From the NCBI GenBank assembly GCA_000961655.1, contig LADR01000054.1, forward strand, positions 1 to 64,000: a DNA stretch of 64,000 nucleotides, written 5' to 3'. The DNA is from Desulfatitalea sp. BRH_c12. Its GTDB lineage: Bacteria; Desulfobacterota; Desulfobacteria; Desulfobacterales; Desulfosarcinaceae. Shown here piece after piece: positions 1 through 61,670 of the stretch; within the stretch, counting starts at the first letter, position 1; each line of letters starts with the position of its first letter. Below the pieces are notes generated by a model. It worked only from the letters and a program-made list of their open reading frames with translations, was not told the origin of the DNA and searched no databases. The translations under genes were made by a program, and so were the position numbers.

Positions 1-788
1 CAGCGGGCAGCGTGGTCATCAAGGTGACCATTCTCCCAGGGATTTACCGACATCTACGCGCCGGGCGAACACAAGGTTCGCCGCCAAAAATAAAACGATG
101 CCTGTGCCAGAAATCAAAAGGCCGTAACCTTTCTGCGGCTCTTACGCAAACCCTCGTTGCCGTGTTATCGCAGGGGCTCCACCTGTAGGGGCGACCGGCG
201 GTCGCCCGGTGCGGGTGCATAGCCTCCACCCCAGGCAATCATGGGTCCGGGAGAATAAGGCCGCGCCATTTTGTGCGGTGACCCAAATTCAGTGGTTCGC
301 GCGGGCGACCGCCGGTCGCCCCTACAGCGGGCAGCGTGGTCATCAAGGTGACCATTCTCCCAGGGATTTACCGACATCTACGCGCCGGGAGAACACAGGG
401 TTCGCCGCCAAAAATAAAACGATGCCCTGTGCCAGAAATCAAAAGACCGTACCTTGTTGCGGCTCTTACGAGAACCCTTTTCGCCGTGTTCACGCAGGGG
501 CTCCACCTGTAGGGGCGACCGGCGGTCGCCCGGTGCGGGTGCATAGCCTCCACCCCAGGCAATCATGGGTCCGGGAGAATAAGGCCGCGCCATTTTGTGC
601 GGTGACCCAAATTCAGTGGTTCGCGCGGGCGACCGCCGGTCGCCCCTACAGCGGGCAGCGTGGTCATCAAGGTGTCCATTCCCCCCAGGGATCAACCGAC
701 ATCTCCTCGCACCGGTAGAACACAAGGTTCGACCCTGAGGGAGGACGATGTTCCATAATGCGGCCCATACACAAATACGGTTACCCTG
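1..788. repeat. Tandem array of 324-bp nested-hairpin repeat, right end of a MITE-like element
   Basis: The first 730 bases are two full copies and one partial copy of a 324-bp unit (copies begin at 1, 325 and 649). Each unit holds a perfect 25-bp inverted repeat (183-207 with 303-327; 507-531 with 627-651), and each arm is itself a short hairpin with GGCGACC/GGTCGCC stems. The array ends at 772-788 in CAAATACGGTTACCCTG, which matches the terminal motif of the element at 40317-40779. The left end lies outside the window. Long open frames here come from the GC-rich palindromes and are not read as genes. Confidence 0.85.
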
Positions 789-23319: not shown

Positions 23320-23485
23320 GCTCGCTGTGGGGGCGACCGTCGGGTCGCCCCTACAGGTCGAACCCCCTGCGATACGCGGTGAAAAGGGTTCGCGTATGGT
23401 CCGCAGGAAGATATGGCCTTTTTTAGCTCAGAGTAACGCTAATTGCAAAAGAACAGTAATGAAAATTCCAAATGCGGTTACCCTG
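23320..23485. mobile_element. Truncated MITE-like repeat element
   Basis: This stretch has the repeat family's GGGGCGACC-GGTCGCCCCTACAG hairpin near 23330-23355 and ends at 23469-23485 in CAAATGCGGTTACCCTG, identical in pattern to the right terminal motif of the element at 40317-40779. The left terminal motif is missing. Confidence 0.6.
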
Positions 23486-25076: not shown

Positions 25077-25203
25077 TCCAAACACGCATCTGAAGCACTC
25101 GAGAGATATATGCTGCCCGAAGTGGGCGGGACGCGCCTGGTGCAATCAGCAATTAAAATTACAGGAAGTGGTGCCGATCGGCGCTGTGAAGGGGCGCAAC
25201 CAA
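25077..25203 (+). pseudogene. Duplicate fragment of a tyrosine integrase 3' end
   Basis: About 127 bases nearly identical to 26696-26825. It encodes the same end of an integrase (ALERYMLPEVGG with the catalytic-type Tyr), here with a frameshift after SAIKI. The two copies are direct repeats around the HicAB and Phd genes. Nothing upstream of this copy resembles integrase, so it is an isolated end piece. Confidence 0.7.
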
Positions 25204-26342: not shown

Positions 26343-26869
26343 TTGCATTTTTCGATAAGCGCATTTGCGCCGAGTCTTGCACTCATCTGGCTGGCCGTCC
26401 GGATTTTGTGTCACAATCCGGAAGTACGTCCTGGGGAGCTTATCAAGGTGTGCGAGCAGGATGTCCTGGTCGAGCACGGCATCATCATGGTGAAGTGGTC
26501 GAAAGAAGGCACTCTCAAAGGAAAGCACGCGCATTTGTGGGACGATGAGATTGAAGTAATTCAGTCGTTCGTGCCGGCGCTTCCCACGGTGCCGTTCTTC
26601 CGGTGCCGCGGGTCGGGCTGTATGCGTTAGTAAAGCACAGCACGTTGACGGCCCTGTCCACGCAATTGACTCCTGAACAGATCCGGCGTGGAGGATCCAA
26701 ACACGCATCTAAAGCACTCGAGAGATATATGCTGCCCGAAGTGGGCGGGGCGCGCCTGGTGCAATCGGCAATTAAAAATTTACAGGAAGTGGTGCCGATC
26801 GGCGCTGTGAAGGGGGTGCAACCAAAGTGCAACCAAAAAATGGGCCAAGCAAAAATCTTGAGTAACTGA
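26343..26869 (+). pseudogene. Decayed tyrosine recombinase/integrase
   Basis: The catalytic domain is recognisable in two frames. The first (to the stop near 26630) has EVRPGELIKVCEQDV with the box I Arg, then WSKEGTLKGKHAHLWDDEIEVI. The second has KHSTLTALSTQLTPEQIRRG and the Tyr context ALERYMLPE. A frameshift lies between 26600 and 26630, and the N-terminal part is missing. The remnant ends 17 bases before the 3' end of tRNA-Cys, a classical integration position. Confidence 0.75.
26696..26825 (+). repeat. Direct repeat copy 2 (integrase 3' end)
   Basis: Matches 25077-25203 with a few substitutions and small indels. The pair brackets 1.6 kb holding hicB, hicA and the Phd-like gene. Such a duplication may result from recombination between related integrase ends or from two successive insertions at the same tRNA. 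Confidence 0.8.
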
Positions 26870-26885
26870 TTTTTTAGGTAAAAAT

Positions 26886-26960
<75 letters not shown>

Positions 26961-26968
26961 AAAAAAAA

Positions 26969-27043
26969 TGGAGCGGGAAACGGGATTTGAACCCGCGACT
27001 TCGACCTTGGCAAGGTCGCACTCTACCACTGAGTTATTCCCGC
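26969..27043 (-). tRNA. tRNA-Gly (GCC)
   Basis: Minus strand: acceptor GCGGGAA, D-loop CAGTGGTAGAG, anticodon loop TTGCCAA with anticodon GCC between CGACC and GGTCG, T-loop GTTCAAATC, closing TTCCCGC, T and an encoded CCA. It lies 8 bases upstream of tRNA-Cys and 55 bases downstream of pgsA, the same pgsA-Gly-Cys order as in Escherichia coli. Confidence 0.96.
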
Positions 27044-34434: not shown

Positions 34435-34462
34435 GATCAACTCCTTGGAAAGTTAAAAAGTT

Positions 34463-34600
34463 TTAAGTGTAAAGTGTTAAGTGTTAAGATAATGTATTCT
34501 ATCTTTAGAGATGGACGCGGTGCCGAAGTGAAGTAAAAGTATATAACAAAAAACCCGCCAAGGCCTTTCTTTACACTTTACACTTTACACTTAACACTTC
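34463..34600. repeat. Two inverted arrays of a TTTACAC-type heptad repeat
   Basis: 34463-34488 holds AAGTGTA/AAGTGTT units and 34569-34600 holds the complementary TTTACAC units, so they face each other with an 80-base spacer and can form a long imperfect hairpin. The second array runs into argD and codes for its last residues, VLSVKCKV. Similar arrays lie at 36774-36805 and 40784-40815. Confidence 0.8.
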
Positions 34601-36717: not shown

Positions 36718-36773
36718 TCTTTTGGTTTTCCTATGCCGGCTTAGCCGGATTTAAGCCCTTCGCACAAGGCTCC

Positions 36774-36805
36774 CTTTACACTTTAAACTTTACACTTAAC
36801 ACTTC
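36774..36805. repeat. Heptad repeat array
   Basis: Four to five units of CTTTACA/CTTTAAA/CTTAACA between argB and hslU. The right end ACTTAACACTTC is the same as at 34589-34600 and 40804-40815. Confidence 0.8.
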
Positions 36806-36837
36806 TCAATAGTCACTTGAGCGAACTGCATTACAGA

Positions 36838-39802: not shown

Positions 39803-40129
39803 TTATGCCGCTCTGCGCGTCTTCTTTTTGATGCGCGAAATCTGTCGGCGATAGCGCGTCGCCAGCACGCTGTCCTTGGCTTCCAATGCCTGGCTGCGCT
39901 GCCCTTTCAGGCTTTTGATCTTGGCTTTGAGCTGTTTGGTAGTGGCGCCGGGCTTGGCCTTGGGGGTATCTTTGATGCCCCTGGACTCTTTGATCTCAGC
40001 CAGCAGTTCGGTTTTGTTCATTCCGTGCACGCCCACGATGCCATCGATCTGCTTGGCGATTTCCCGTAAATCCTTGACGGTCATTTTGTCGAGCGGTTTT
40101 TCCTTGGCTTCCTTCTTGTCTTTTGCCAT
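39803..40129 (-). CDS. Basic protein with Rho N-terminal/SAP-like domain
   Basis: 108 residues, very rich in Lys and Arg. The first half has a Rho_N-like motif (LDKMTVKDLREIAKQ, then VHGMNKTELLAEIKES), a small helical nucleic-acid-binding fold. The second half is a basic coiled stretch (LKAKIKSLKGQRSQALEAKD) ending in KKTRRAA. RNA or DNA binding is likely. No clear operon partner is near. Confidence 0.75.
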   Translation of the reverse strand: MAKDKKEAKEKPLDKMTVKDLREIAKQIDGIVGVHGMNKTELLAEIKESRGIKDTPKAKPGATTKQLKAKIKSLKGQRSQALEAKDSVLATRYRRQISRIKKKTRRAA

Positions 40130-40316
40130 AGTTCTGAATCCCCTTTCTTATCTGTTTCGAAAAGCAACAACGGAGGCCCCGTATACGCCTCCGCCAAATT
40201 CAATGCCGGTGCCGCAGGATAGCTGGCAGCTATATATCTTCCAGCCGCTTGAAAATGTGTAGATTACCGCGTTTGTCTTTTAAATGTCAATAAGGTCGCG
40301 TTTCTTGTTTCTTAAA

Positions 40317-40779
40317 CAGGGTATCCGCATTTGAAAATTGTTCTCGCAGGGGATAACACCTGTAGGGGCGACCGGCGGTCGCCCGGTGCGGGTGCAAATC
40401 CACCACCCCGGCAATCATGGGTGCGGGAGAAAAAAGGCCGCGCCAGCCTGTGCGATGACCCAAATTCAGTGGTTCGCGTGGGCGACCGCCGGTCGCCCCT
40501 ACAACGGGCACCGTGACTATCACGGTGTCCATTCGCCCCGGGATTGACCGACATTTACGCAACGGGCGAGCACAAGGTTCGCCCATACAGGTGAAACCGG
40601 ACGCTCCCCTCAGGTCCAGTGGGTTGCGCGGGCGACCGCCGGTCGCCCCTACAGCGGGCATCGTGGTCAGCACGATGGCCTTTCGTCCCCAGGGATCCGC
40701 CGACATTTACGCACCGGGCGAACACACGGGGCGGCCATTAGGAAGAACGATGTACTATTCCTGAAATGCGGCTACCTTG
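40317..40779. mobile_element. Complete MITE-like element with terminal inverted repeats
   Basis: 463 bases without a transposase. The left end CAGGGTATCCGCATTTG (40317-40333) and the right end GAAATGCGGCTACCTTG (40763-40779) are inverted copies matching at 14 of 17 positions. Inside are the family hairpin arms at 40360-40384, 40480-40504 and 40630-40654. Related pieces lie at 1-788, 23320-23485 and 51662-51845. No clear target-site duplication is visible. 40130-40316 before it shows nothing recognisable. Confidence 0.7.
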
Positions 40780-40783
40780 GTCC

Positions 40784-40815
40784 CTTAACACTTATCACTT
40801 ATAACTTAACACTTC
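40784..40815. repeat. Heptad repeat array next to the MITE-like element
   Basis: CTTAACA, CTTATCA, CTTATAA, CTTAACA units directly follow the MITE-like element and precede the stop of the slipin gene. It shares the end ACTTAACACTTC with the two arrays near the arg genes. Confidence 0.75.
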
Positions 40816-40826
40816 CTTATGCCATT

Positions 40827-41576
40827 TCACACTTTGCTCTTATCCGAAAACGCCCGAAACAGATCGATGGGCATGGGGAACATGACGGTCGAGTTGTTCC
40901 CGGAGGCCATTTCACGCATCGTTTGCAGATAGCGCAACTGCAGGGCGATCGGGTGAATGGCGATGATCTCGGCGGCATCCGACAACCGGGTGGCAGCCTG
41001 GTATTCGCCTTCGGCATTGATCACTTTGGCCCGCCGCTCGCGTTCGGCCTCGGCCTGCTTGGCCATGGCGCGCTGCATCTCCACCGGCAGGTCGATGTGT
41101 TTCAATTCCACATTGGCCACCTTAAGGCCCCACGGATCCGTATGGGTGTCCAGGATCTCCTGCAACTTGGAATTTATTTTTTCACGATCGGAGAGCAATT
41201 CGTCCAGGTCGGCCTGACCGCATACGCTTCGCAGCGTTGTCTGGGCCAGTTGTGCCATGGCGTAACCGTAGTTTTCTACCTCTATGATGGCTTTCACCGA
41301 GTCGATAACGCGGAAATAGATCACCGCGTTGACCTTGACCGACACATTGTCCCGTGTGATCACGTCCTGGGGGTCGACATCCATGGCAACCAGGCGCAAG
41401 CTGACTTTCACCATGCGGTCCACCACTGGAATCAGCAGAATCAGCCCCGGCCCTTTGGCTGCGATGACCCGTCCGAGCCGAAATATCACGCCCCTTTCGT
41501 ATTCGTTCAAAATCTTAATGGCCGAATACAAGAACAAAAGAAAAAGAACGATAATGGTGACAAAAGGCGCGATCAT
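40827..41576 (-). CDS. Slipin (stomatin-like SPFH/band 7 protein)
   Basis: 249 residues: one N-terminal membrane helix ([19 protein letters not shown]) and an SPFH domain ([20 protein letters not shown], then [20 protein letters not shown]), then the alanine/glutamate-rich helix [20 protein letters not shown]. Prokaryotic slipins pair with NfeD, encoded 82 bp upstream here, and act in membrane domain organisation or quality control. Confidence 0.93.
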
Positions 41577-51661: not shown

Positions 51662-51845
51662 CAGGGTAACCGCATTTGCGTATGGGCCTCAATTCAGAAA
51701 TGCAACATCGTTCTTCCTTATGGGCGGACCTTGTGTTCGCCCGGTGCGGGAGATGTCAGTGGCCCCCTGGGGCGAATGGACATCGTGATGGTCACGATGC
51801 CCGCTGCAGGGGCGACCTGCGGTCGCCCGCGCGAACCACTGAATG
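51662..51845. mobile_element. Truncated MITE-like element
   Basis: Starts with CAGGGTAACCGCATTTG (51662-51678), the terminal motif of the element at 40317, and carries the GGGGCGACC-TGC-GGTCGCCC hairpin at about 51808-51828, then breaks off. It is a fragment in the opposite orientation. The flanks 51539-51661 and 51846-52108 hold no recognisable gene. Confidence 0.7.
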
Positions 51846-60720: not shown

Positions 60721-61670
60721 AAGACAAATGGTGGGCGATGCCCACCCTACCTGGCTATTTGGTTGAAAAGTTCGCGCGGACGACCACCGGTCGCCCCCCT
60801 ACAGCCATTAGTAGGGTGGGCATTGCCCACCACCGCGCTATCACAACAGCGTCGGTTTCTGACCCTGATCCCGCCCAAGCGATTGGATAGACACCGGAGC
60901 GAACAGAGCGATAAGACGTTGAATACGGCCAATCACAGAGGCGATCAATATAAGACAAATGGTGGGCAATGCCCACCCTACCTGGCTGACCCGAATACAA
61001 AGGTTCGCGCGGACGACCACCGGTCACCCCCTACAGCCATTAGTAGGGTGGGCATTGCCCACCACCGCGCTATCACAACAGCGTCGGTTTCTGACCCTGA
61101 TCCCGCCCAAGCGATTGGATAGACACCGGAGCGAACATTGCGATAAAATGTTGAATACGGCCAATTACAGGCGATCAATATAAGACAAATGGTGGGCGAT
61201 GCCCACCCTACCTGGCTGACCCGAATACAAAGGTTCGCGCGGACGACCACCGGTCGCCCCTTACAGCCATTAGTAGGGTGGGCATTGCCCACCACCGCGC
61301 TATCACAACAGCGTCGGTTTCTGACCCTGATCCCGCCCAAGCGATTGGATAGACACCGGAGCGAACATTGCGATAAAATGTTGAATACGGCCAATTACAG
61401 GCGATCAATATAAGACAAATGGTGGGCGATGCCCACCCTACCTGGCTGACCCGAATACAAAGGTTCGCGCGGACGACCACCGGTCGCCCCCCTACAGCCA
61501 TTAGTAGGGTGGGCATTGCCCACCACCGCGCTATCACAACAGCGTCGGTTTCTGACCCTGATCCCGCCCAAGCGATTGGATTGACACCGGAGCGAACAGA
61601 GCGATAAGACGTTGAAACGGCCAATCACAGAGGCAATCAATATAAGACAAAGGGCCACCCTACCTGGCTA
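60721..61670. repeat. Tandem array of a 230-bp repeat
   Basis: Four full copies and a partial fifth begin at 60721, 60952, 61182, 61412 and 61644 (periods 231, 230, 230 and 232). Each starts AAGACAAATGGTGGGC and contains two palindromes (GGTGGGCGATGCCCACC and GGTGGGCATTGCCCACC), a GACCACCGGTCGCCCC-CTACAG segment shared with the 324-bp family, and a unique stretch. The copies are nearly identical. Conserved frames through it are by-products. Confidence 0.9.

Follow-up and report, generated by a model that had tools for sequence, protein, structure and literature searches.

A family of MITE-like elements with ISAs1-type ends and a modular interior in Desulfatitalea sp. BRH_c12

The element described here lies in a 64,000-nucleotide stretch of DNA, hereafter "the window", from contig 81 of Desulfatitalea sp. 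BRH_c12, whose draft genome comprises 5,997,605 bases in 91 contigs. It is flanked by a small gene with a Rho_N domain (39803-40129) on one side and an SPFH/Band 7 gene (40827-41576) on the other, and end comparison, a copy search, target duplications and module annotation together delimit it as follows.

40317-40779, + strand: complete copy of the MITE (463 bp), its modules arranged as [ A p k p m p m ]
40317-40333, + strand: left terminal inverted repeat (end comparison, motif scan)
40763-40779, - strand: right terminal inverted repeat, matching its left counterpart at 14/17 (end comparison, motif scan)
40307-40316, no strand: left copy of a decayed 10-bp target-site duplication, gtttcttaaa, 7/10 identical to the right copy
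40780-40789, no strand: right copy of the same duplication, gtcccttaac, 7/10 identical to the left copy
40362-40384, + strand: GTAG-footed palindrome P1
40385-40479, + strand: core spacer module k, without a match in the 29 other family genomes examined
40480-40502, - strand: palindrome P2, which repeats P1 in inverted orientation and has its GTAG foot outermost
40617-40738, + strand: a further P2+m module, diverged from the first (spacing 150-152)

The initial annotation had read this stretch as a MITE-like element with 17-bp inverted ends matching at 14 positions, and our recount agrees exactly: the left end at 40317, CAGGGTATCCGCATTTG, matches the reverse complement of the right end (40779), CAAGGTAGCCGCATTTC, at 14 of 17 positions. 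It had also described internal hairpins and the absence of a transposase. Both descriptions hold, as the sole ORF of at least 100 aa that overlaps the element has no Pfam match, and the hairpins correspond to three copies of the GGGCGACC..GGTCGCCC palindrome in an element whose folding z is -6.6 as DNA and -8.2 as RNA. The second P2+m copy accounts for a length of 463 bp instead of about 327 bp. An Rfam scan of the element returned one chance-level match (MIR8788, 21.2 bits, E 0.58). Short TTTACACTT/TTAACACTT repeats occur in the window at 34453-34600, 36761-36809 and 40771-40815, the last of them at the element's right-hand boundary, and similar strings are found in two of the relatives (G002 and G003).

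The terminal motif CAGGGTANCCGCATTT has seven matches in the window at no more than three mismatches (shuffle mean 1.78, largest 6). At no more than one mismatch it is found at 773-788 (-), 23470-23485 (-), 40317-40332 (+), 40764-40779 (-) and 51662-51677 (+). Three further loci, each carrying the same interior modules, are thereby marked, and the proposed picture of one complete copy and three cut or expanded ones is upheld.

1-788, + strand: copy expanded in tandem to about 2.2 units of 324 bp and truncated where the contig begins; its right end is at 773-788
23331-23485, - strand: fragment p b' B' ], intact end at 23470-23485
51662-51828, - strand: fragment [ R' m' p, intact end at 51662-51677

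Two other repeats were seen in the window. Positions 60721-61651 hold a distinct array of four tandem units (230 bp each, 95% matching), in which GGTGGGC..GCCCACC hairpins occur together with a variant of the CGACC..GGTCG palindrome; the repeat is not that of the element, and its palindrome is related. In addition, a direct repeat of about 118 bp (25077-25194 and 26696-26815, 96-98% identical, 1.6 kb apart) lies near a tRNA-like sequence at 26880-26998 and is possibly the edge of another mobile element.

The four loci expected within 64 kb proved to be part of a much larger set. In the whole genome the end motif was matched 153 times (79+74 on the two strands) at no more than two mismatches, against 16 (7+9) for the reversed control, and 90 times (43+47) at no more than one mismatch, against 1 for the control. 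Used as a query, the window copy was matched at least 143 times, 40 out of 232 candidates having been scored; 100 of the 153 end-motif places were listed, and these copy numbers are lower bounds. The stretches around the matches hold at least 91 module-bearing clusters, a few of which are single weak module matches, and at least 28 inward-facing end pairs within 1500 bp. One of these pairs (C24:475306-476560, 1255 bp, one end with 3 mismatches) is likely due to chance and was left out of the duplication test; the other 27 copies measure 135-463 bp. Two arrangements of neighboring elements were also observed: at 148-189 of L063 (G000:C58:1-2000) a single 10-bp stretch, tcgcccaggg, has elements on both sides, and at G000:C44:84503-84690 (L025, L039) an element with CAGGGCAATCGCATGT-like ends abuts the copy at C44:84701 and the same ten bases, ggcttcacaa.

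The flanks of the 27 paired copies demonstrate that the family makes 10-bp target-site duplications. The 10-bp flanks are identical in 9/27 and match at nine or more positions in 13/27, against 0/702 mismatched pairings, and flank widths of 7, 8, 9, 11 and 12 gave no perfect case among the same pairs. In-register flanks matched at seven or fewer positions in 12 of the 27, three of which reach at least 9/10 after a shift of 1-3 bases. The window copy is among the decayed ones and, as its duplication is conserved at only 7/10, is probably an old insertion. When the flanks were rejoined and the two longest spanning frames per site inspected, five sites (C48:104642, C12, C5, C35 and C7) had a stop-free frame of at least 120 bases on both sides; the remaining 22/27 had no such frame, which indicates that insertions occurred mostly between genes. 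Common end points and duplications of fixed length among the genome-wide copies thus support the MITE reading of the initial annotation.

The same annotation had proposed a comparison with related genomes for sites whose boundaries coincide with the ends. In ten of the 20 relatives searched (G001, G002, G003, G005, G006, G007, G008, G009, G010 and G012), both flanks could be aligned over 100 bp or more, and all ten are without the insertion at the window locus; their spacers measure 103-377 bp, where 179-280 bp is expected without the element and 473 bp more with it. Two more relatives stand outside this count: G011, whose left match is 96 bp, has a spacer of 386 bp (expected 264 without the element, 737 with), and G032, taken from match coordinates, has 445 bp (expected 317 and 790, respectively). 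The insertion is therefore specific to the lineage of BRH_c12. This part of the expectation stood, but a base-exact empty-site junction could not be aligned at the window locus, the spacers of the relatives being too diverged.

The search for an IS with the same ends led to another genome, in which an intact 1300-bp member of the ISAs1 family (G060:C50:6767-8066, L174) matches both 16-bp ends at 16/16. Its one stop-free frame of 389 codons scores 448.7 bits to NCBIfam NF033564 (ISAs1) and holds PF13808 and PF01609; no target duplication is evident around it. The host is a MAG labelled Cyclobacteriaceae, and of its 26 motif matches only the two on C50 are exact, so the contig may be misplaced; the IS copy may thus represent either a recent transfer or a misplaced contig. 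Closer to BRH_c12, the 3′ ends of ISAs1-type transposases run directly into the motif in three genomes of the same genus (G006, where the motif has 1 mismatch, G007 and G010), and G011 carries a decayed 1319-bp ISAs1 element with one exact end and the other at 3 mismatches. In a member of the same order (G041), internally deleted ISAs1 elements of 720 and 380 bp have one end exact and the other at 1 mismatch. These two deleted copies (L155:1387-2106 and L166:1388-1767) carry each other's 10-bp flanks (CGCATACAAT at 10/10; CGATGTTTAC/CGATGTTTCA at 8/10), a sign of recombination between them. G005 was also seen to carry a 1345-bp ISAs1 element (L149:1385-2729) whose transposase frame is unbroken and whose ends resemble CAGGGCAATCGCATGT.

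In BRH_c12 itself, PF13808 had no match and NF033564 matched a C-terminal relic only, at C26:156542; another ISAs1 C-terminal relic lies at C49 (L061). Six PF01609 (DDE_Tnp_1) loci were considered as parents and rejected, none having an end at two or fewer mismatches. No intact autonomous ISAs1 partner was found in this assembly which, being a draft, may have collapsed such a copy. ISAs1 family members produce target duplications of 8-10 bp, a range within which the 10 bp of the element falls. The available portion of PMC8763236 mentions ISAs1 and gives no duplication length.

The element shares with the ISAs1 IS (NF033564) ends that are identical over 16 bp to those of the intact 1300-bp member and near-identical to those of the internally deleted members, but it differs in having no transposase and an interior without a blastn link to the IS. 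We considered whether the left arms derive from the IS 3′ end: 7 of 150 comparisons of arms beyond the ends with the IS reached a shuffle p of 0.01 or less (1.5 expected), yet the arms, like the IS ends, are related among themselves and the derivation was not robust. As for a type I origin, in which the interior comes from an IS by deletion, no blastn link was seen between the interiors of BRH_c12 and the IS cluster, and the element is accordingly filed as type II.

Elements with the same ends also occur elsewhere, mostly within Desulfobacterota. An exact scan of named genomes with CAGGGTAACCGCATTTGG gave at least 112 stretches; among the 80 matches listed by title, 65 are from Desulfobacteraceae, Desulfobacterales, Desulfonema, Desulfosarcina, Desulfocicer or Deltaproteobacteria, 13 from one MAG titled "Proteobacteria bacterium" (KR11), and one each from Gammaproteobacteria and Cyclobacteriaceae. 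Desulfosarcina cetonica JCM 12296 is among the matches listed. From these loci, 29 end pairs were drawn, several being copies within one genome, and their 10-bp flanks match at nine or more positions in 16/29, against 1/812 in the control. Four loci (L177, L219, L210 and L225) are duplicate entries of elements L135, L131, L148 and L155.

Their interiors are another matter. After trimming 24 bases per end and single-linkage clustering (blastn E <= 1e-4), the 27 copies of BRH_c12 fell into one cluster, whereas elements of other genomes formed another 14 groups, none of them linked to that cluster; a separate interior cluster comprises the ISAs1 elements, whether intact, decayed or deleted. Nine of the 14 foreign groups have a member with flanks of at least 8/10, and the other five are defined only by their end pairs. 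Matches of no more than 26-28 bp join one of the groups (Desulfocicer, SURF_7, L280), and another (CSMAG_2445, L260, L274) joins records of which only part were listed by title. Module k (40386-40478), with 30 matches in BRH_c12, recurs in none of the 29 other family genomes examined. With ends shared and interiors largely private, these elements correspond to type II MITEs in the terms of the available text of PMC10969869.

Within BRH_c12, annotation of the examined stretches distinguished seven modules in addition to the palindromes and ends. The 91 clusters follow a common grammar, [ L p k p m R ], in which L is A, B+b or C; short forms lack inner modules, and p-m occurs twice in the window copy. 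In eleven clusters, including window 1-788 (period 324, 2.2 copies), two core units share one orientation and are not separated by an end, and several of these clusters touch contig ends. The lack of ends between tandem units suggests that the arrays probably arose from slippage or unequal recombination, not from transposition. Over 44 cores, P1 is perfect in 39 and P2 in 32, against 16 for the best other 20-base window, a comparison in which core selection favours P1 and, less so, P2.

The palindrome is not confined to the element. In BRH_c12, GTAGGGGCGACCGGCGGTCGCCC had 260+263 strand matches against 0 for the control, where one palindrome may count twice. Among 20 further stretches taken from the first 100 palindrome matches, four (L310, L311, L312 and L320) show the palindrome without a module; L310 keeps remnants of b and k by eye, and such lone palindromes may be decayed copies. 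In relatives, none of the 20 palindrome places examined (L323-L333 and L341 in G009, L334-L337 and L342 in G010, L338-L340 in G012) has a MITE module. Two palindromes per place were seen in 7/12 places of G009, 3/5 of G010 and 0/3 of G012; the seven doublets of G009 lie 21-45 bases apart, six with GTAG and CTAC outermost and the seventh (L329) with an outer right foot CTGC. These doublets without MITE modules suggest that the p-k-p core may be a captured REP doublet.

REPINs have a GTAG foot, a palindrome and inverted doublets, and the inner palindromes of the element show all three. GTAG-tagged REPs as described in the available part of PMC3733652 share these traits, but the palindromes seen here differ from them in that no cognate Y1 transposase was found in three palindrome-bearing genomes; the main text of that paper, so far as available, has neither "Desulf" nor "GTAGGG" at a word start. 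On a rival reading, the whole family would be of the REP/BIME/REPIN kind, spread by a Y1 (RAYT) transposase, and its CAGGGTA ends would be incidental, a view in line with the abundance of GTAG-footed palindromes in BRH_c12 and with the doublets that stand apart from MITE modules. However, the target duplications lie exactly at the CAGGGTA ends, and same-ended elements elsewhere have other interiors. Moreover, Y1_Tnp had no match in G009 (64% complete), G010 and G012, and the loci of two weak Y1_Tnp matches in BRH_c12 contain no palindrome nearby. A RAYT origin of the palindromes was rejected on this ground, and in the absence of a palindrome-flanked Y1 transposase they are not counted as REPs with a RAYT. 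We consider this explanation improbable: the end duplications contradict it for the whole element, while for the palindromes alone it may still hold.

It is very unlikely, in our judgment, that the repeat is a host regulatory or structural RNA, or a terminator, kept for its function and not mobile. Stable folding of the window copy and the better conservation of the palindromes than of the rest would fit such a role. Against it, only one pair with a double change was found over the 44 cores (shuffle mean 1.16), so that a conserved RNA structure was rejected for want of covariation in spite of strong folding, and the Rfam match is at chance level. Target duplications and absence from the orthologous spacers also speak against a purely vertical host feature, although a later co-opted role of the element is possible. 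Finally, there is hardly any chance that dispersed short inverted motifs were paired by accident or by misassembly at repeats, as the 91-contig draft with several contig ends inside tandem arrays might suggest, given 28 inward-facing pairs within 1500 bp, a unique ten-base register that no mismatched pairing reproduces, and the same pattern in other assemblies, including a genome assembled as one 7.6-Mb contig (G023, L143), where the flanks of a 155-bp end pair match at 8/10.

We therefore regard the family, with high confidence, as non-autonomous DNA transposons (type II MITEs) with ISAs1-family ends, which would be moved in trans by an ISAs1-type transposase; the shared ends and the duplications point to such mobilization. 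The elements are short, multi-copy and free of a transposase gene, with inverted repeats at fixed ends, a duplication of fixed length and an empty site at the window locus. As a mechanism, we propose that an ISAs1-type DDE transposase, supplied in trans, would recognize CAGGGTAaCCGCATTTG as the ends and make staggered cuts, mostly between genes, into which the element is inserted, leaving the 10-bp target duplication. The source ISAs1 copy of BRH_c12 would have been lost, decayed or left unassembled, and the p-k-p segment may have arisen through the capture of a doublet of GTAG palindromes. Beyond the initial annotation, the analysis thus points to ISAs1 as the likely parent family, to a modular interior whose core was found in BRH_c12 only, and to a palindrome that also occurs without the element in relatives.

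The family resembles type II MITEs (PMC10969869, from its available text) in being short, non-coding and multi-copy, with IS similarity at the ends only and target duplications; it differs in that no intact parent IS was found in its own genome and in having several alternative arms on one core. From the same text, and compared by description only, the Chunjie MITE of Geobacter uraniireducens is likewise variable in size, with inverted ends, direct repeats and many partial copies, and QMITE2 of Coxiella burnetii is likewise a MITE containing a GTAG extragenic palindrome. In pneumococcal BOX elements, boxB units lie in varying number between boxA and boxC (PMC3049150, available part). The likeness of BOX in Streptococcus pneumoniae and S. 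suis, with end modules around variable tandem inner modules, is one of architecture only, and extends in S. suis to alternative end modules around the same inner module; the units of our family are instead about 300 bp and its ends are tied to ISAs1. No ISAs1-ended MITE is described in the available portions of PMC9208149 and PMC3542288. A literature search combining MITE, Desulfobacteraceae and transposase gave no match, and one for the palindrome string gave matches that, by title only, are unrelated. Judged by these literature searches, the family is unpublished.

The family is a familiar kind of mobile DNA, a well-documented new example rather than a new kind, and intergenic repeats as well as some of the contig breaks in the draft genome of BRH_c12 can be put down to it. 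Three features, taken together, make it more than routine: a single end set is paired with many different interiors, the core is modular and forms tandem arrays, and a doublet of palindromes sits within ends of the DDE type. It is conceivable, and we offer this only tentatively, that one ISAs1-type end set has repeatedly captured unrelated filler across Desulfobacterota, with about one private interior per lineage, and that here the filler was a formerly mobile GTAG doublet, so that a single element would stack two transposition chemistries, that of its DDE ends and that of a REP-like core. If this is true, the group would be a natural experiment on the birth of type II MITEs. With a parent transposase family that is likely identified, a duplication fixed at 10 bp, a relative that carries deletion intermediates of the parent, and sister families that have only the ends in common, the family allows a direct test of where the interiors of type II MITEs originate.
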